49,389 nt of DNA from a virus: positions 1 through 49,389 of the IMG/VR virus record IMGVR_UViG_3300050002_000044, one strand, 5' to 3'. The position numbers and the translations under genes are program-made. The notes beneath the pieces were generated by a model. The model saw only the letters and a list, made by a program, of their open reading frames with translations, made no database searches and had not been told where the DNA came from. How positions within the stretch are numbered: the stretch's first letter is position 1; each line of letters opens with the position of its first letter. Shown in pieces: positions 2,592 to 41,542 of the stretch.

Positions 2592-4553
2592 ATGAGAAAA
2601 GTTACAATCAAAACAGAAAAAGTTATTGAGTACAAGCTTACGTGGCTGGAGGACTATCTATTGATTGCGACAGGAGGTGACTCGTATGGAGGATACTCAC
2701 ACGAGCACGGTCTGCCAAGCGCTTCTGAGAAGTTCCCACAAGAACTCATTGATGCAGCAAAGGATGAAATCCGCAAGCATCGCGCTATGGATGACAACGA
2801 ATTCTACGGTCCTGATGGGTACGTGACATTTCGGATGGAGGATGGGTGTGCCGCGGCTGTAATGGATGATGACCTGTCTTTCAGCTCACTCATGAAACCT
2901 GGCGAGGCGGTTAAGATGCAAGGGCTACCTGAGAGGTACTACCCACAACGCGAACACCTACGCGCCTGGTACCTCAAATATCACGCCCCACAATGGACAG
3001 TAAGTGAGTGGGATGAAAAGAGGATATGGCCCGGTGTAGTGGTTAAAAGACCAGTCACAGGGGGGATGATCGAGAGGTTCTTTAACCACGAGTCACAGTT
3101 GGCGAGTCTCCCTGACAATTGTCCATCCGACATCGTCGAACTCGCTCGGCGTAGGATTCGCGAGAAGCGACCTGAGGAGGAGAACGAGGCGCGGGATAAC
3201 TATGGTATCTACACACTTTCGGTCAAAGATGGTTCGCTCCATCTCTCGTCAGATCTTGGTAAAAATCACATACGGACAAGGTCGCAACTTGAGAAGCGGG
3301 TCTCAGCAAGTGGTTCCAGCTGCCACTTCTGGACTCGCTGCCTAGAGTACTTTGATAGGCATTGTCAGTGCGCACCAAATCAGGTGCGCAATGAACTAGG
3401 GCAAATATTCACACTCGCGTGGCGAGGCGGTATGCGCATGTGTAGGGCTGGCAACGATTCCGCGTGGTGCAAATGGTCGACTGGCCTGCGCAGAGACTGG
3501 TGCAGAGATGGCGATGCATGGTTTGATGCTAATCGACCGTTAGCTGAGAATGAGGTATTTATTAACGGTGAGGTGCGAACATTGTACATCTCTGGTGGTA
3601 ATGTAGGATTTACTGGATATAGCTATTACTGGGATCCAGAGGCAAGGGTGGAGCGCTGGCTTCTTAGCCTCGACTGGAAATCTAAGGCAGAACAGTCCGA
3701 AGCATTTCGCCGGTGCAAGTCATTCTGGGAGGCTAATCGACCATTAGCTGATAATGAGATAACAATCAACGGTGAGAGTTACGAGATTACCCTCTCGTGC
3801 GGTTATGCTGTTGCTGACATTGGTTACATTAGCCCGTGCTACAGCGACTCTCTCTCGGTCTCTCGTAGCGAGTGGTGCGACGATGGACACGTTAAATGGT
3901 TAGGAGATTTCGAGAGACTTGAGGCTTATGACCGGCTCAAGGCTTTTTGGGAAGCGAATTGCCCACTAGCCGATGATGAAAAACTAGTCGACGGCCAGCG
4001 AGTAAAAATGGCCGCGAATGAGATGCGGTTTGACGATGGCACAGTGGGAGTGATGAGCAAAACGGTTGAGAGGTATATTACGTTCGCCACTCAGGACGGG
4101 ACGCGCTTCCTAAAGGTTAGTTCCAGCTCCAGCCGGTGTGACGGGGACTGGATGTGGTCAGGGGAGGTAAAAATCACCTCCGAGCCGCAACGTCAACGCG
4201 TTCTTGATTTTGCGAAGGGGAATCGACCGTTAGCTGTGCCGAACGTGGAGGAATATCCATTTATCACTCCTGATAGCAATAGCCGGTTCAAGGTGAGGCC
4301 ATCGAAGCGAGCTGGATGCTATGAGTTTAGGTTTTCTAGCTGGCCTTGTGGGGACTGGATGTCAGGAAACTTGTCTTTGCTCGACGACCCGAACGATCCA
4401 CACAACGCTCATCGTGATGAGATCAAAAGGATCTGTGGAGTGACTCAGGGCAAGCTACCGATTTTTCTCATAACAACCCCCAATGCGTCAGTTAAGCCAT
4501 CTGACTGGGGCTTCACCGGCAGGGTCAAGGTTACTCTTGAGGATCTAAAGTGA
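2592..4553 (+). CDS. Large modular repeat protein, unknown function
   Basis: 653 residues, the largest gene of this region; AAGG lies 7 bases before the ATG. It is built of repeated modules. Two N-terminal copies share a pattern of a P-rich turn followed by an E/R-rich helix and a D-G beta segment. Then a motif (F/D)xxANRPLA(D/E)(N/D)E occurs near 3529, 3734, 3953 and 4217, each followed by a beta-rich segment ending in a W-x-G/DW region. The last module (YPFI...RFKVR-x-SK...WP...) matches the stand-alone 66-residue protein at 11385-11585. No enzyme motif, signal peptide or membrane segment is seen. Confidence 0.85.
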   Translation: MRKVTIKTEKVIEYKLTWLEDYLLIATGGDSYGGYSHEHGLPSASEKFPQELIDAAKDEIRKHRAMDDNEFYGPDGYVTFRMEDGCAAAVMDDDLSFSSLMKPGEAVKMQGLPERYYPQREHLRAWYLKYHAPQWTVSEWDEKRIWPGVVVKRPVTGGMIERFFNHESQLASLPDNCPSDIVELARRRIREKRPEEENEARDNYGIYTLSVKDGSLHLSSDLGKNHIRTRSQLEKRVSASGSSCHFWTRCLEYFDRHCQCAPNQVRNELGQIFTLAWRGGMRMCRAGNDSAWCKWSTGLRRDWCRDGDAWFDANRPLAENEVFINGEVRTLYISGGNVGFTGYSYYWDPEARVERWLLSLDWKSKAEQSEAFRRCKSFWEANRPLADNEITINGESYEITLSCGYAVADIGYISPCYSDSLSVSRSEWCDDGHVKWLGDFERLEAYDRLKAFWEANCPLADDEKLVDGQRVKMAANEMRFDDGTVGVMSKTVERYITFATQDGTRFLKVSSSSSRCDGDWMWSGEVKITSEPQRQRVLDFAKGNRPLAVPNVEEYPFITPDSNSRFKVRPSKRAGCYEFRFSSWPCGDWMSGNLSLLDDPNDPHNAHRDEIKRICGVTQGKLPIFLITTPNASVKPSDWGFTGRVKVTLEDLK

Positions 4554-7770: not shown

Positions 7771-8024
7771 TGAGTAAATTTAAGAATGCGACCATCGAAG
7801 AATTAGAAGCAGAGTTGAAGCGTCGACATGAACAGCTGCCAGATGTCGTTGAGGGTTGCGACCTGCCTAGTGATGTGGTGGATCTACTGCAGAGAATATG
7901 CGAGCGGCACGTGGCAGGTGGACACTACTACGAGGAGGAATCCGGTCTGTTATGGGACAAGATGATGGAAAAGTGCTTTGGGGCAGACTTTATTCCTTGG
8001 TGGCGCAAGTTTGGGCCGTCATGA
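7770..8024 (+). CDS. Small acidic hypothetical protein
   Basis: 84 residues from ATG 7770 (GGGAAGAG upstream). Helical N-terminus (TIEELEAELKRRHEQL) and an aromatic C-terminal segment. Overlaps the next gene by 4 bases. Confidence 0.65.
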   Translation: MSKFKNATIEELEAELKRRHEQLPDVVEGCDLPSDVVDLLQRICERHVAGGHYYEEESGLLWDKMMEKCFGADFIPWWRKFGPS

Positions 8025-8230
8025 TGAAATTTGCAACATGTGATGGAGAGCGCGCACGTTTCGTTCCGACATCAGAAATTCAAGGCGGCGGATTGATTCC
8101 TGGCGATTATGTAGCGAGAGTCGAGTCGGGTGAGGTAGTGGGCCTCGAGGTTAGGGCGGATACTGGCTTTTCGCACATCTGCACACATATACTGTGCTTC
8201 GGAACCTGCCCGATTACCATCAGCTATTGA
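8021..8230 (+). CDS. Small hypothetical protein, last of operon
   Basis: 69 residues from ATG 8021, coupled to the preceding gene (ATGA). Beta-rich with three cysteines in the last third. After it come about 100 bases without a gene, then the candidate RNA at 8335. Confidence 0.55.
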   Translation: MMKFATCDGERARFVPTSEIQGGGLIPGDYVARVESGEVVGLEVRADTGFSHICTHILCFGTCPITISY

Positions 8231-8319
8231 CGATATATCGGCCAAACGGTCGACATAATAACATATGGCCACGGGGCAAATAGCGCTAAATGCGTGTAAT
8301 TACATATAGTGCAATTTCG

Positions 8320-8328
8320 TGCTATGCT
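8320..8328 (+). promoter_or_regulatory. Extended -10 promoter for candidate small RNA
   Basis: TGC followed by TATGCT is a complete extended -10 box. Six bases later, at 8335, the first base of the long RNA stem begins, the expected transcription start. No good -35 box is present, as is common for extended -10 promoters. Confidence 0.55.
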
Positions 8329-8334
8329 GCTTAC

Positions 8335-8434
8335 GGACCGCTAGGAACAGCGAGTCGGCGCGCTACCCGGGTTCTCCATCTCCCATTCTCCCCCGGTATG
8401 CCTTGCGCCCCCTGTTCCTGGCGGTCCTTTTTTT
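8335..8434 (+). ncRNA. Candidate small RNA with closing stem and U tract
   Basis: Bases 8335-8350 pair with 8412-8427 over 16 positions with one wobble, and seven T residues follow (8428-8434). Inside, GGCGC (8357-8361) pairs with GCGCC (8405-8409), and TACC-c-GGG (8364-8371) pairs with CCC-c-GGTA (8391-8398). The 19-base apical loop (8372-8390) is pyrimidine-rich, and UCUCC-type words occur three times between 8372 and 8394, complementary to ribosome binding sites. With the promoter at 8320 this is a self-contained transcription unit. Alternatively it is only a large terminator for the upstream operon. Any reading frame crossing it has no ribosome binding site. Confidence 0.6.
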
Positions 8435-8436
8435 GC

Positions 8437-8464
8437 TTGATTTTTGGTGCTAGTGTGGTAGTAG
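8437..8464 (+). promoter_or_regulatory. Promoter for 8472-8762
   Basis: TTGATT (8437-8442), 16-base spacer, TGG then TAGTAG (8459-8464). Seven bases separate it from the ATG at 8472, and no ribosome binding site is present. TTTGGTGCTA and the following GTGTGGTA recur upstream of the gene at 8821. Confidence 0.5.
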
Positions 8465-8471
8465 TGTGCTT

Positions 8472-8762
8472 ATGGGCAAAAACATACCAGAAGTCTGTCC
8501 GGTGTGGGGAACCCCCGCGCTTGATGCCCCAACCGCTGGACCCAATAGGGAGGAGGTGATCCTATGCCGGGTGTGGGAGACCCCCGCTCGTGAGATTTAC
8601 GTGTATCAGGATGGGGTCCCAGAAGAGAAGTCAACAGTTCAGGGGCCAACGCATATTCAGTGCGTTTGCAGATTCAAATCAGGCTCTGGCCGAGCCGTAT
8701 GGACTGGCCAGGATTGGAGGTGGGTTCAGTGGTTAGTTAGCGATCGTCTATTTAGCTACTAG
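8472..8762 (+). CDS. Hypothetical protein
   Basis: 96 residues from ATG 8472 (MGKNIPEVCPVWGTP). Two half-repeats, VCPVWGTPA and LCRVWETPA, occur about 24 residues apart. C-terminal tryptophan-rich stretch. No family recognised. Probably read from a leaderless message. Confidence 0.55.
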   Translation: MGKNIPEVCPVWGTPALDAPTAGPNREEVILCRVWETPAREIYVYQDGVPEEKSTVQGPTHIQCVCRFKSGSGRAVWTGQDWRWVQWLVSDRLFSY

Positions 8763-8804
8763 TGGTATAGTGAGCGACCAACCTGAGATCTTTGGTGCTA
8801 TGTG

Positions 8805-8813
8805 TGGTAAGGG
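8805..8813 (+). promoter_or_regulatory. Possible extended -10 promoter for 8821-8955
   Basis: TGG then TAAGGG, 7 bases before the ATG at 8821, in the same arrangement as 8456-8472. The -10 match is weak; support comes mainly from the conserved repeat. Confidence 0.35.
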
Positions 8814-8820
8814 TGTGATT

Positions 8821-8955
8821 ATGGGAAAACTGAAACTTCGCACAGCAATAGTTCTCGTGATGGCGACCAGGAAGGCTCGGGAAGTGCTCGTGATGAAAAA
8901 CCGCCAGGTTGGGGCAACCGGCTTGTTCATCACAATTTTGGGAGATAGTCAATGA
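8821..8955 (+). CDS. Small basic hydrophobic protein
   Basis: 44 residues from ATG 8821 (MGKLKLRTAIVLVMATRK). An in-frame GTG at 8770 would add 17 residues, but that stretch is a repeated non-coding element. Its stop overlaps the next ATG. Function unknown. Confidence 0.45.
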   Translation: MGKLKLRTAIVLVMATRKAREVLVMKNRQVGATGLFITILGDSQ

Positions 8956-9149
8956 AAAATCCAATTGAAAATACAGTCGGGCCAGATGGTGGTCCTACAC
9001 CGAGCGAGGAAGCGACCACCTGGAGCATCGCGGACCCTAGTAACACGATCGAGCCCCTAATTTATCTGGCCCGCAATACTAGTGATGAGTGGCCCCCCGG
9101 CTTGTTCGAAGCACTGTTGGCAGAAGCACTGTGCTATGATGAGCTATGA
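8952..9149 (+). CDS. Small acidic protein
   Basis: 65 residues, ATGA-coupled to the previous gene. Acidic, low in basic residues, ending EALLAEALCYDEL. Not recognised. Confidence 0.5.
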   Translation: MKNPIENTVGPDGGPTPSEEATTWSIADPSNTIEPLIYLARNTSDEWPPGLFEALLAEALCYDEL

Positions 9150-9217
9150 CCAACCTGAGATATCTGGCCTATAGACTATCCCAGCACAGTTACGCTCACT
9201 TCATCGGGTGTCTGTGA
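9146..9217 (+). CDS. Possible 23-residue coupling peptide
   Basis: ATG at 9146 overlaps the previous stop and opens 23 codons ending in a GTGA overlap with the terminase small-subunit start. The beginning lies in the GACCAACCTGAGAT repeat (also at 8776). It could serve only to deliver ribosomes to the next gene. Confidence 0.3.
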   Translation: MTNLRYLAYRLSQHSYAHFIGCL

Positions 9218-9684
9218 AGAAACCCAAATCATATAAGCGCGGCACAACGCTGACCACCGAAGAAAAAATAGCCTACATTGAAGGGCTGATGTATTCCGGT
9301 GTGTGGCGTAGGGGCCGTACTGTGCGTTTGCTAGCCAAGGAATGGGGGCTCGCTGTCAGTACTGTACAACAGCTCAGTGCTGAGGCGTCCCGCACCGTTC
9401 GGCGTCAGATTAGTGAGCCCGACGCGGCTGCTGTCGACGTAACGCTGGCACTCCGTGAGGTGATGGAGGACGCGCTCGAAGATGCGGCTGATTCGGCATT
9501 TCGGATGACCAAAGAGGGGCTGAAAGCCCGCGATCAGGTAATTGCCTCCGCCAAAGCCTATAGCGACATTATGGGGTGCTCGGCGCCGATCAAAATTGAA
9601 GTGGACGCAAAAAAGGCCACCCCAGAGGCGGCCCGTGCTTTGATGCGGCAGAAGGCTGGCGATGTTACTCCTGGGGAGGAGTAG
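9214..9684 (+). CDS. Probable terminase small subunit
   Basis: 156 residues from GTG 9214 (GTG 9208 is an alternative). The N-terminal half holds a helix-turn-helix (TVRLLAKEWGLAVSTVQQLSAE), the usual DNA-recognition domain. A long helical region follows (REVMEDALEDAADSAFRM) as in the oligomerisation domain, and a short acidic tail. Size and layout fit small terminases of Mu-like and other phages, which bind the packaging site and recruit the large subunit. Unusually, the large subunit is about 5.7 kb away across a minus-strand cluster. Confidence 0.65.
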   Translation: MKKPKSYKRGTTLTTEEKIAYIEGLMYSGVWRRGRTVRLLAKEWGLAVSTVQQLSAEASRTVRRQISEPDAAAVDVTLALREVMEDALEDAADSAFRMTKEGLKARDQVIASAKAYSDIMGCSAPIKIEVDAKKATPEAARALMRQKAGDVTPGEE

Positions 9685-16994: not shown

Positions 16995-18641
16995 ATGAGC
17001 CGACCTATGAGACGAGTGCGGATAGACCAGTGGTCTCCAGGTATCCAACGTTATTGGACGCCAGCTCGCGTGCGGGCAGCACTGTCTGCACATGCTGAAG
17101 GTGATTTTTGCCAGTCCGCCAAGCTCGTCGAGGCAATGTGGGAGGATGACGAGCTCCCCACAGCTCAGGCTGCGAGCATCAATTTTATCGTTGGCTCTGA
17201 GTTTCGGCTCAATCCGGCATCAAAAGACAAAGAACCTATCCCAGAGAGCGAAGCGCTCACCGATCAGTTAGAGCCATACTGGGACGATGCCTATCCCTCA
17301 TCTGAGATCGCGCGCCTACTGAGCTGGTTCCAAATGCTCGGAGTGGCCATTGGTGCACTCGATTGGTCGCAGAATGATGAGGGCAAATGGATCCCGAAGT
17401 TACGTGTTCTCAACCCACAATTCCTTCGCTGGGACGATTCTGAGATAGACCCGCAAACCGGGCTACATGGCGTTTTCAGATATCAGTCACGTGACCGGGA
17501 GCACATTGTCACGCCAGGCGACGGCACATGGGTGCTCCTGAGCGACGGCCGAGAAAGCTGGTTGCGCGCTAGCGTGCTTGCTTTGGCGGAAACCTGGATG
17601 GTTAAGGGCGGGGCAGTCCGAGACCTAGCGCGGTACATGGAGCGCCATGGGTTGCCGATCGTCAAAGCGATGGTGCCGGCGTTTGCCAATGACCCGGACA
17701 AGAAGGGTTTCTTTAACGATGTCAGGAGTGTAGGCTCTGATACCACGGTGCTCCTACCCACTCATATGGGTGGCGCAGATATGCCCGATGCTGGGTTCGA
17801 TTTAGAGCTCCTTGAGGCTACTGACGGCTCGTGGGAGGTATTTATTTCGGCGCTAGAGAGGTGCGACCGTAAATACCAAGTCCATTTTATGGGCACGAAC
17901 ACCAATGAGCTAATAGATGGCGCCGGGAGTAGGGCCACCAGCGAGAGCGGACGAAACATCTCCATGCAAAAAGCGCAGGAGTTGATTAACCGCGTCAAAA
18001 GCGATATTCGCGCCCATCTAGTGGCCCCATTCTACGATGTCAATGGGATAGCGTATTCTCCAGCACTGCTCCCTCATCCTATGTGGCTCGTAGAGGGCGA
18101 TGAGGATATGGGCAAGCGCGCCGAGACATTGGAGTCATTCGGCAGGGCAATTAACGCCATCGGAATGGGATACGAGATCAAAAACATTGATGAGTTGGCT
18201 GCCGAGTACGGGTTGACCCTAGAGAAGAAAAAGGATATAGATCCAAATGACAATGGGCAAGGTGGCCCAGGAAAACAGGGTCAAAATGAGAAAACTGAGA
18301 ACGGCGATAGTAGAAAAAATCTTGATAATTTGCATGATTGTGGGTTATCTGATTCACCGACGCCGGTCGAGGAGGTCGGAAAAAGGAGCGGATTCAAATC
18401 GGGGCAAGAGTATCTCGATCGACTAACTGACCGCCTGACGCATGAGTCAGAGATTCTAGAGCAATTAGACGCGGAGTCAATGGCGGAAATCGTAGAATCC
18501 GCAGAGACTCCAGCACAGCTAGAGCGCATGCTATCATTTTACGTCAATGATGGCGATCATGAAACTCTCGGGCGGCTGTATGAAAAGGCAATAATCCTGG
18601 CTCAAATGGCCGGTCGATTTGGCGTGCAGGAGGACCTGTGA
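16995..18641 (+). CDS. Portal protein, Mu gp29-like (DUF935)
   Basis: 548 residues from ATG 16995. The body is that of the DUF935 portal family: PTAQAASINFIVGSEFRLNP early, LRVLNPQFLRWDD and GHFR-like YQSRD in the wing, and a long helical tail. It forms the dodecameric ring through which DNA enters and leaves the head. The C-terminal region (about 440-548) has a polar linker and a helical segment that could bind the next proteins. The end carries AGGAGG, the ribosome binding site for the next gene. Confidence 0.88.
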   Translation: MSRPMRRVRIDQWSPGIQRYWTPARVRAALSAHAEGDFCQSAKLVEAMWEDDELPTAQAASINFIVGSEFRLNPASKDKEPIPESEALTDQLEPYWDDAYPSSEIARLLSWFQMLGVAIGALDWSQNDEGKWIPKLRVLNPQFLRWDDSEIDPQTGLHGVFRYQSRDREHIVTPGDGTWVLLSDGRESWLRASVLALAETWMVKGGAVRDLARYMERHGLPIVKAMVPAFANDPDKKGFFNDVRSVGSDTTVLLPTHMGGADMPDAGFDLELLEATDGSWEVFISALERCDRKYQVHFMGTNTNELIDGAGSRATSESGRNISMQKAQELINRVKSDIRAHLVAPFYDVNGIAYSPALLPHPMWLVEGDEDMGKRAETLESFGRAINAIGMGYEIKNIDELAAEYGLTLEKKKDIDPNDNGQGGPGKQGQNEKTENGDSRKNLDNLHDCGLSDSPTPVEEVGKRSGFKSGQEYLDRLTDRLTHESEILEQLDAESMAEIVESAETPAQLERMLSFYVNDGDHETLGRLYEKAIILAQMAGRFGVQEDL

Positions 18642-19333
18642 TCGGGCCATTTATGAAGGTTTTTGGTTCCAAATGGGGGGCCAGTAAAAAGGGCCGCTAC
18701 CCCGCGCCTAGGTTCCATCGCATCTACGAGCCATGGGCTGGCGGAGGAGGGTACTCGTGTGCGAATCATGAGTGCGACGTGTACCTGCGCGAGAGCCACC
18801 CTGAGTTACACCAGCTATGGTCATGGTTGATTAGGACGGCGTCCGAGTCTGACGTTAGGGACATTCCCATCTTTGAGCCAGGGGTTAACCTACTATCAAC
18901 TGGCCTAAGTGCTGAGCAAGCGATATTGGTCAAATGGTGGCAGCGCACGAACAATCACGGCACCAAGACATTTATCACGTCACCTTGGTCGGATAAGCCC
19001 GGACAGTGGACGGCCAGCACGCGCGCTAGGATCGCGGAACAGGTAAGCGCGATCAAACACTGGAGACTTGGGCCGCCGAAAACGTCAGAGCCAATGACGA
19101 TATTTGCCGACCCGGTGTATCAATACAACTACAAATATGGTTGTCCCACGCCGGACTATGGCGAAATGGCGAGCTGGCTCAAGGGCCTTGCCGACGATGG
19201 GTCACAGGTCATCGCTTGTGAAGCGAGGGGTAAAAATGGGGAAACCCCCAATTATCTACCTTTCGCCGAATCTCATAGACAGATCACTGTTAATCGCAAT
19301 AGATATTCTAGCGAACTCATCTGGACATCATAA
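18638..19333 (+). CDS. Dam-family methyltransferase homologue with DPVY motif
   Basis: 231 residues from GTG 18638 (AGGAGG upstream, GTGA overlap). EPWAGGGGYS (31-40) is the SAM-binding motif I, but the catalytic motif reads DPVY (158-161) where Dam-type enzymes have DPPY. The acidic loop TDTDE of its relative is RESHP here. It is clearly paralogous to 40790-41542 over the whole length (WSxK, ARxAxQVxxIxxW, DYGExAxW). It may be a modified-specificity or inactive enzyme. The place between portal and gpF genes is unusual for a methyltransferase. Confidence 0.8.
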   Translation: MIGPFMKVFGSKWGASKKGRYPAPRFHRIYEPWAGGGGYSCANHECDVYLRESHPELHQLWSWLIRTASESDVRDIPIFEPGVNLLSTGLSAEQAILVKWWQRTNNHGTKTFITSPWSDKPGQWTASTRARIAEQVSAIKHWRLGPPKTSEPMTIFADPVYQYNYKYGCPTPDYGEMASWLKGLADDGSQVIACEARGKNGETPNYLPFAESHRQITVNRNRYSSELIWTS

Positions 19334-26122: not shown

Positions 26123-26562
26123 TGGCAGACTATCCCGAAACTGAAGGCTTCACGCTTGGATTCCAGCGAGCTGAGCTAACCATGAATGGCAATGTTTACA
26201 CCGCGATCACGCAGGTAGATATCGACCAGCCCACCGAATCAGAAAGTGTCATGGGCACAAGCTCCACGCCGCTTGCCGAAACTGAGGGCCAGATGGATAT
26301 GGGCGAAGGCACCGTGACATTTAGCGATGACCGTGAACGATTTCGATTCATCGATGATCTAGGGGACGCCTATCGCAACAAGAGGTGGTCGCTCTCGTGG
26401 GTTGTCCGAAATGCAGGCGGCGACGAGACTCAGATTAAATGCATTGGTTGTCGAGTGACAGGAAACCCCATCTCTCACGGTTCTGGGAGCGCAGCTCTCG
26501 GCGGGGATGTTAGCTTCAAGTTCTTTGAGCACACGATCAACGGCAAGCGCCCCCACGGCTAA
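26122..26562 (+). CDS. Tail tube protein, Mu gpM-like
   Basis: 146 residues directly after the sheath. GMNGNVYTAI-type start, a central acidic segment and GGDVSFKFFEHTINGKRPHG at the end match contractile-tail tube proteins. Confidence 0.85.
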   Translation: MADYPETEGFTLGFQRAELTMNGNVYTAITQVDIDQPTESESVMGTSSTPLAETEGQMDMGEGTVTFSDDRERFRFIDDLGDAYRNKRWSLSWVVRNAGGDETQIKCIGCRVTGNPISHGSGSAALGGDVSFKFFEHTINGKRPHG

Positions 26563-40415: not shown

Positions 40416-40806
40416 CCGCAGCTACTTTTGATGAGACGATCTCGCGTGGGATGCCAAGCAGGACAGATATATCGTCCGCATCTTGCGCTTCCCAATGCGT
40501 GCGACCCAATTCGTCGACCTGATGCACTGCATCTAGCATACATGACTCACACCGATTCTCGTCATATCGCCGCCTAATCGCCTCGACCGCTTCAGGCTCG
40601 CGCAACTGACCAATCTGGCCTATCAGATTGAATTCGCAATTGAATGCCTGGCAACGCTCGGCCTTAGGGTCGTCAGGAGGCAGTAGACGGAGATGGCGTC
40701 TGGGCTCACATTCGGCGTAAGTCGTTGGCGGCCGGTCGGCTTTATCGATCCTGCCCGACCGGTCCTGCATGACGTCTATCCCAAATAGATTATTTTGATA
40801 TGCCAT
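40336..40806 (-). CDS. Hypothetical protein with four-cysteine cluster
   Basis: 156 residues. Cysteines at YAECEPRR, RCQAFNCEF and NRCESCML could bind a metal or Fe-S cluster. The later ISVLLGIPREIVSSKVAAVM resembles a helix-turn-helix. Last gene of the minus-strand replication operon. Overlaps the methyltransferase by 17 bases. Confidence 0.6.
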   Translation of the reverse strand: MAYQNNLFGIDVMQDRSGRIDKADRPPTTYAECEPRRHLRLLPPDDPKAERCQAFNCEFNLIGQIGQLREPEAVEAIRRRYDENRCESCMLDAVHQVDELGRTHWEAQDADDISVLLGIPREIVSSKVAAVMHVARQIFRGETPAPAVDNPESHEQ

Positions 40807-41542
40807 TGTTAGTCCAGTAAACTTCGTGAGCTTTTTTCAGGGTCTTATCTCGACCTATGCTGCTAGTTCTCGCATTTGGGTCCAGGGTCTCAAACGGCAG
40901 CCAATTAGCGCCAAGTTGCTCATGCACCGTGACATCACCTCGGCGCTCGCGACACCATGTAGCTAGTTCACCATAGTCTATTGGTTCGTGCTTGTACTCA
41001 GCGTTACCATGCGCGTTGCTTTGGTATGGTGGGTCGATATGCCAATGCGCAGTAAGGTTATCAATGGCCGTGTATGGCACGCACCGAATGCTCCAACTGC
41101 GGATACTGTCGACTTGACTGGCGACCCTGGCTCGAGCCTTGTGTGACCAGGTGTTCCCTGCATGGCCGTTTCTGTCGCCGAGTAGGCACGGAGCGAGTCG
41201 GTTCGAGTGGCTGCCTGAGATAGACAACCAGCGCTGGATAAACAGCCTTCTTGGCTCGTCCAGATTCAGTTCCCGGAGATCTCCACCTTTCAGAAAGTGA
41301 TCCACTGGTAGCGACATGATGTCTGCGGGCGACGCGCGGATCAGGAAATCCCACACCATACAGACGCGCTCATCAGTGTCAGTTAGGATTACGCGGTGAT
41401 CCGGCGTGGCGTACCTCACCGAATAAGCAGCTGAGCCAGCAAATGGCTCTATTATCGTTTTGAATCTCGGCTGTGGGAGCTTGGCTGAGATGCGCCCCTT
41501 GCTGCCGAAATGCTTAAAAAAAGCCCTATTTTGAGGTTTCAT
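40790..41542 (-). CDS. Dam-type DNA adenine methyltransferase
   Basis: 250 residues. IIEPFAGSAAYS (31-41) is the SAM motif, TDTDE (54-58) the ribose-binding acid loop, and DPPY (170-173) the catalytic motif of N6-adenine methylases. It could protect phage DNA from restriction. Paralog of 18638-19333. Overlaps the gene before it by 17 bases. Confidence 0.88.
   Translation of the reverse strand: MKPQNRAFFKHFGSKGRISAKLPQPRFKTIIEPFAGSAAYSVRYATPDHRVILTDTDERVCMVWDFLIRASPADIMSLPVDHFLKGGDLRELNLDEPRRLFIQRWLSISGSHSNRLAPCLLGDRNGHAGNTWSHKARARVASQVDSIRSWSIRCVPYTAIDNLTAHWHIDPPYQSNAHGNAEYKHEPIDYGELATWCRERRGDVTVHEQLGANWLPFETLDPNARTSSIGRDKTLKKAHEVYWTNNGISK

Follow-up and report, generated by a model that had tools for sequence, protein, structure and literature searches.

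A candidate small RNA with a single CU-rich loop in the genome of a divergent tailed phage

Introduction

The closest phage parallel of the element described here is sRNA1 of the virulent Pseudomonas phage PAK_P3, an RNA of about 100 nt that lies in a 200-bp gap (PMC4933390). Together with the second small RNA of that phage, sRNA2, it resembles the present element in size (about 100 nt), in its intergenic location among hypothetical genes and in its tailed-phage origin; the PAK_P3 RNAs differ in having been seen by RNA-seq, and sRNA2 further carries a match to tRNA T-loops (PMC4933390). A distant blastn search against the phage collection showed no sequence relation to either of them. A first-pass annotation of this DNA had held that few phage-encoded regulatory RNAs are described, which agrees with the 2016 report on PAK_P3, where only the T4 band C and D RNAs are named as earlier cases from virulent phages (PMC4933390), but understates the present count, since the table of a 2025 review lists 38 sRNAs of phage origin whose function is undescribed, in addition to those with a described function (PMC12197685). 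Since phage sRNAs of such a size are known (PAK_P3 sRNA1 and sRNA2, and those in the review), the element can be placed as an orphan candidate within a known class. Orphans of this sort escape gene callers and Rfam, which leaves the regulatory RNAs of phages under-annotated. Among bacterial sRNAs with C-rich loops, sX13 was shown to repress its targets independently of Hfq through G-rich motifs near their translation starts (PMC3771888).

The window analyzed (the whole stretch of 49,389 nt from one viral record) belongs to a tailed phage, and its positions 8335-8434 probably encode a discrete sRNA, to which we give a probability of about 0.6. The fuller reading, an sRNA that also pairs with translation-start regions, is tentative and falls somewhat short of an even chance.

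A Hairpin That Starts at the Predicted +1

The anatomy reported earlier for 8335-8434 was recovered at, or within a base of, the positions given for it, and consists of the following features:

8299-8328, + strand: promoter-like site by consensus match, with -35 ATTACA (8299-8304), an 18-bp spacer and extended -10 TGC-TATGCT (8320-8328)
8335-8434, + strand: candidate small RNA of about 100 nt, the start inferred from the -10 and the end from the T run
8335-8350, + strand: 5' arm of the basal stem, GGACCGCUAGGAACAG, pairing with 8412-8427 at a probability near 1
8357-8371, + strand: 5' arm of the nested stem, GGCGCGCUACCCGGG (minimum free energy fold and base-pair probabilities)
8372-8390, + strand: apical loop of 19 nt, UUCUCCAUCUCCCAUUCUC, CU-rich, the presumed seed (unpaired probability)
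8391-8409, + strand: 3' arm of the nested stem (minimum free energy fold and base-pair probabilities)
8412-8427, + strand: 3' arm of the basal stem, CUGUUCCUGGCGGUCC (minimum free energy fold and base-pair probabilities)
8428-8434, + strand: run of seven T directly after the stem, an intrinsic terminator by sequence

The basal stem comprises 16 positions, 15 of them Watson-Crick pairs and one a U·G pair, and its arms enclose 61 nt, within which the nested hairpin spans 53 nt (8357-8409). The element folds into a single hairpin of -50.3 kcal/mol (RNAfold), compared with a mean of -29.3 (sd 3.0) for its dinucleotide shuffles, none of which was equally good in 200 (z -7.0). When the entire 49 kb contig was scanned on both strands in 100-nt windows at steps of 10 bases (9858 windows), nothing outside this locus folded as stably; the reverse strand of the locus reached -52.0 kcal/mol. 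A strict descriptor of the hairpin, which asked for a basal stem of 14 bp enclosing 25-90 nt and for a T run, found three matches on both strands of 2.2 Mb of phage loci plus the window; one is the element itself, and the other two fold differently. The element is single copy in the contig.

The loop had been described as a 19-base pyrimidine loop with three UCUCC-type words; its size and its words stand, although it is CU-rich rather than purely pyrimidine, with 17 pyrimidines of 19 positions plus two A. The words read UUCUCC, AUCUCCC and UUCUC(C), and the last C of the third UCUCC sits in the closing stem. Each loop position is unpaired with a probability of about 0.9 or more, except for the last base (about 0.5), and this openness holds in the element alone as well as in two longer contexts with 35-115 nt added upstream.

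The -10 hexamer TATGCT occupies 8323-8328 with TG one base upstream, and the extended -10 places +1 at about 8335, the first base of the basal stem, just as the first-pass annotation had it. Matches to consensus are four of six for the -35, which is weak, and four of six for the -10, with TG present; a simple scanner that demanded 9 of 12 matches did not list the site. Counted over both strands, the contig has 91 extended -10 sites, 12 of them with an equally good -35, and the chance that such a site falls within 2 bases of the required place is about 0.0006 (about 0.005 if the -35 is ignored), rough post hoc figures from these two counts that should be read loosely. The element thus has, as sequence signals, the own promoter and intrinsic terminator expected of a trans-acting sRNA.

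Two further hairpins were recorded elsewhere in the window. The best-scoring + strand sigma-70-type match in the first 16 kb is TTGAGG-18-TATAAT at 1847-1876, with a long G+C-rich hairpin just upstream (1757-1818). A second very stable hairpin (1111-1200, about -43 kcal/mol per 100 nt) has no T run and sits downstream of the RepA-like gene, where the sequence is for the most part non-coding.

Genomic Setting and Coding Potential

Among the proteins encoded by the contig are a portal of the Mu type (Pfam Portal_Mu) and a tail-sheath-like protein with DUF2586; its large terminase shares 28-29% identity with those of phage B3 and Sinorhizobium phage Aussie. Its replication module comprises an AAA ATPase, DUF669, a putative exonuclease, a helicase and RepA; the helicase is 43-53% identical, and the RepA fragment 34-40% identical, to counterparts in Idiomarinaceae phage 1N2-2, Alteromonas phage PB15 and Manatee Spring viruses, and the helicase of Alteromonas phage XX1924 shares 50% identity with that of the contig. 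The element occupies a 235-bp gap (8231-8465) within a rightward operon of small genes, for which family searches and neighbour-gene comparison gave no known relatives.

Two ORFs overlap the element (8290-8559 and 8319-8453), and a codon model with the long ORFs as its training set gives them -0.21 and -0.16 per codon, respectively, against a median of +0.12 for the called genes. On these negative scores a protein-coding reading of 8335-8434 was rejected; a PHROGs search with the overlapping 89-aa ORF gave no match. A tRNA-like reading was likewise rejected, and no tRNA was detected in the contig. With a promoter, a stem at +1, a terminator, no coding signal and a single copy, the self-contained small-RNA unit proposed in the first-pass annotation is the best reading of this anatomy.

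Several further features of the genome were recorded. A repeated leader precedes small genes at 8443-8475, 8776-8825 and 9148-9167 (GACCAACCTGAGAT, TTTGGTGCTA..TGTGGTA...GTGTG.TTATGGG), perhaps as a shared promoter or leader, and GTGCTAT is common to it and to the -10 region of the candidate sRNA. The gene at 2592-4553 encodes a 653-aa protein without a Pfam match and contains three in-frame 48-nt repeats (3525-3998). Two proteins with similar starts, encoded at 18638-19333 (FGSKWGASKKGRYPAPRF..) and 40790-41542 (FGSKGRISAKLPQPRF..), look like D12-type adenine methyltransferases, the Pfam match being found for the latter only.

Search for Relatives

Rfam release 15 gave no gathering-score match in the window and none up to an E-value of 10 in 8200-8600, and blastn against phages and plasmids found no homologue of the element. 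Nor was one found in loci related by the small-terminase-like protein, the large terminase or a 236-aa neighbour, and the loci collected through RepA had no neighbour gene in common with the contig. Scans of viral contigs with stem and loop patterns, and of bacterial and archaeal genomes with the loop pattern, returned matches that fold into nothing similar, and a single-sequence covariance model gave nothing convincing in 33 whole records or 86 loci. With every one of these searches empty or no better than chance, the element is an orphan candidate by DNA, neighbour proteins, patterns, Rfam and covariance model. Single-protein scans recover only close kin, so more distant carriers may exist.

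The one weak covariance match lies in Idiomarinaceae phage 1N2-2 (E 0.04; across 33 records about one such match would arise by chance). On inspection it belongs to another structured element, which precedes an HNH endonuclease gene. This second element is common to two marine phages, 1N2-2 (26420-26500) and Marinomonas phage P12026 (2040-2125), in both just upstream of HNH endonuclease genes; the copies are about 74% identical, with a conserved outer stem of 13 bp, inner stems in which both sides have changed, and a run of six T. The P12026 copy has no Rfam match, and the element is possibly a leader terminator or a small RNA tied to the endonuclease gene.

Pairing of the Loop with Translation Starts

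The loop was earlier proposed to block ribosome binding sites, and its words are indeed able to meet GGAGA-type sites, which several phage genes carry (the gene at 8952, for instance, is preceded by GGGAGAT). Over the 73 called phage genes the mean duplex energy with the loop was -9.6 kcal/mol at starts versus -7.1 at mid-gene positions, so that the expected preference is present. However, shuffled loops of equal composition gave -9.2 +/- 0.6 at starts; 142 of 500 equalled or surpassed the real loop on the mean, and 322 of 500 did as well on the top ten. The start-region preference is thus an effect of base composition, because shuffled loops pair equally well, and within the phage's own genes pairing did not exceed it: the 40 best pairing sites include two at starts against 2.2 expected, and no single base-pairing target stands out phage-wide. 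A long antisense target within the phage was also rejected, the longest perfect complement elsewhere being 12 nt and lying outside the loop. What does agree with anti-Shine-Dalgarno loop sRNAs is the exposed CU-rich loop itself, and such an action is a plausible inference by analogy with sX13, LhrC and the CCUCCUCCC-loop RNAs.

Proposed Action and Alternative Explanations

We infer that the element is transcribed and that its product pairs with mRNAs. It would be an orphan single-copy sRNA gene of a divergent tailed phage, lodged in a gap among small genes. Transcription by the host RNA polymerase, carrying the housekeeping sigma factor, would begin at about 8335 and end in the T run. The product would be an RNA of about 100 nt forming one long nuclease-resistant hairpin; because the stem starts at +1, the loop and the U tail would be its main, and essentially its only, exposed parts. 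The loop would then most likely serve as an antisense seed for purine-rich translation-start regions of host or phage mRNAs, where pairing would hinder ribosome binding in the manner of C-rich-loop sRNAs. A strong requirement for Hfq appears less likely because there is no single-stranded A/U-rich site near the terminator.

The main rival to this reading is an oversized intrinsic terminator for the early operon upstream, whose genes extend to 8230; it would stop transcription there and shield the 3' end of the message, in which case the promoter-like site would be fortuitous, the inner 61 nt would have no function of their own and a 3'-derived fragment may perhaps be shed. The position speaks for it, as the element lies just downstream of the gene at 8024-8230, in an operon with all genes rightward, and has a G+C-rich stem followed by seven T, while the genes from 8466 on are preceded by a repeated leader of their own, GGTGCTA...TGTGGTA at 8444 and 8793, in which a promoter could lie. 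Termination, however, has no need for a 16-bp stem that closes a second structured hairpin of 53 nt, the phage's other terminator-like site after a gene makes do with 7 bp and a 3-nt loop, and the promoter match is placed correctly to within a few bases. The layout is also unlike the phage's own short terminator-like hairpins (e.g., 797-813), which supports the sRNA, and we consider the terminator a serious but doubtful explanation, with a chance of roughly one in three.

It is unlikely that the CU-rich loop acts as a decoy that occupies a host RNA-binding factor instead of pairing with mRNAs, be it Rho, by way of its primary site, or a protein of the FinO/ProQ type bound to the stem and the U tail. 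The repeated YC steps in the loop, the single hairpin with its U tail and the absence of an outstanding phage base-pairing target would all suit such a role, whereas 19 nt is short for a Rho site. Least probable, and held only as an outside chance, is an element acting at the DNA level, either an inverted repeat that serves in packaging or in recombination, or else a small mobile element with terminal repeats. A small-terminase-like gene, recognized by eye, does lie about 0.8 kb downstream (9208-9684; its protein gave no family match), but the element is asymmetric, with a promoter on one side and seven T on the other, and a mobile element or repeat was rejected on its single copy and lack of a target-site duplication. 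The U·G pair, which is the one imperfection of the basal stem and pairs only in + strand RNA, favours, with the asymmetry, the single copy and the lack of target-site duplication, an RNA from the + strand over a DNA element.

Returning to the small RNA, a more far-reaching version, in which the triple UCUCC loop of a single-hairpin RNA is turned against the host during infection, to block translation starts broadly or to serve as a protein decoy, seems improbable; as far as the consulted literature on phage sRNAs goes, no phage case of such a one-loop design was found described.

Comparison with Known Small RNAs

The phage-encoded PreS of lambda and VpdS of VP882 are trans-acting sRNAs, as proposed for the element, but they are Hfq-bound and come from temperate phages with known targets (PMC12197685), and, apart from the U tail, the element gives no sign of a single-stranded Hfq site. 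Another parallel is sX13 of Xanthomonas, a highly structured RNA whose apical loops are C-rich and which has little sequence left single-stranded; it differs in being a bacterial gene with three stem-loops and proven targets, whereas one hairpin is present here (PMC3771888). The LhrC family of Listeria likewise has three redundant CU-rich words that can pair with a Shine-Dalgarno sequence, but its UCCC sites are spread over two loops and a single-stranded stretch (PMC4132741); with all words in one loop, the element does not have the layout of that family. The Rhizobiales RNAs SmelA075 and SmelA099 also present anti-Shine-Dalgarno loops on stems, with three or four hairpins and a CCUCCUCCC loop on each (PMC3927594), unlike the element, which has one hairpin and no CCUCCUCCC word. 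By itself the element opens no new mechanism; if transcribed, it would add a clean and compact example of a C-rich-loop sRNA from a phage and provide a testable seed, and if it does function, sX13, LhrC and the CCUCCUCCC-loop sRNAs would be the models for how it works.
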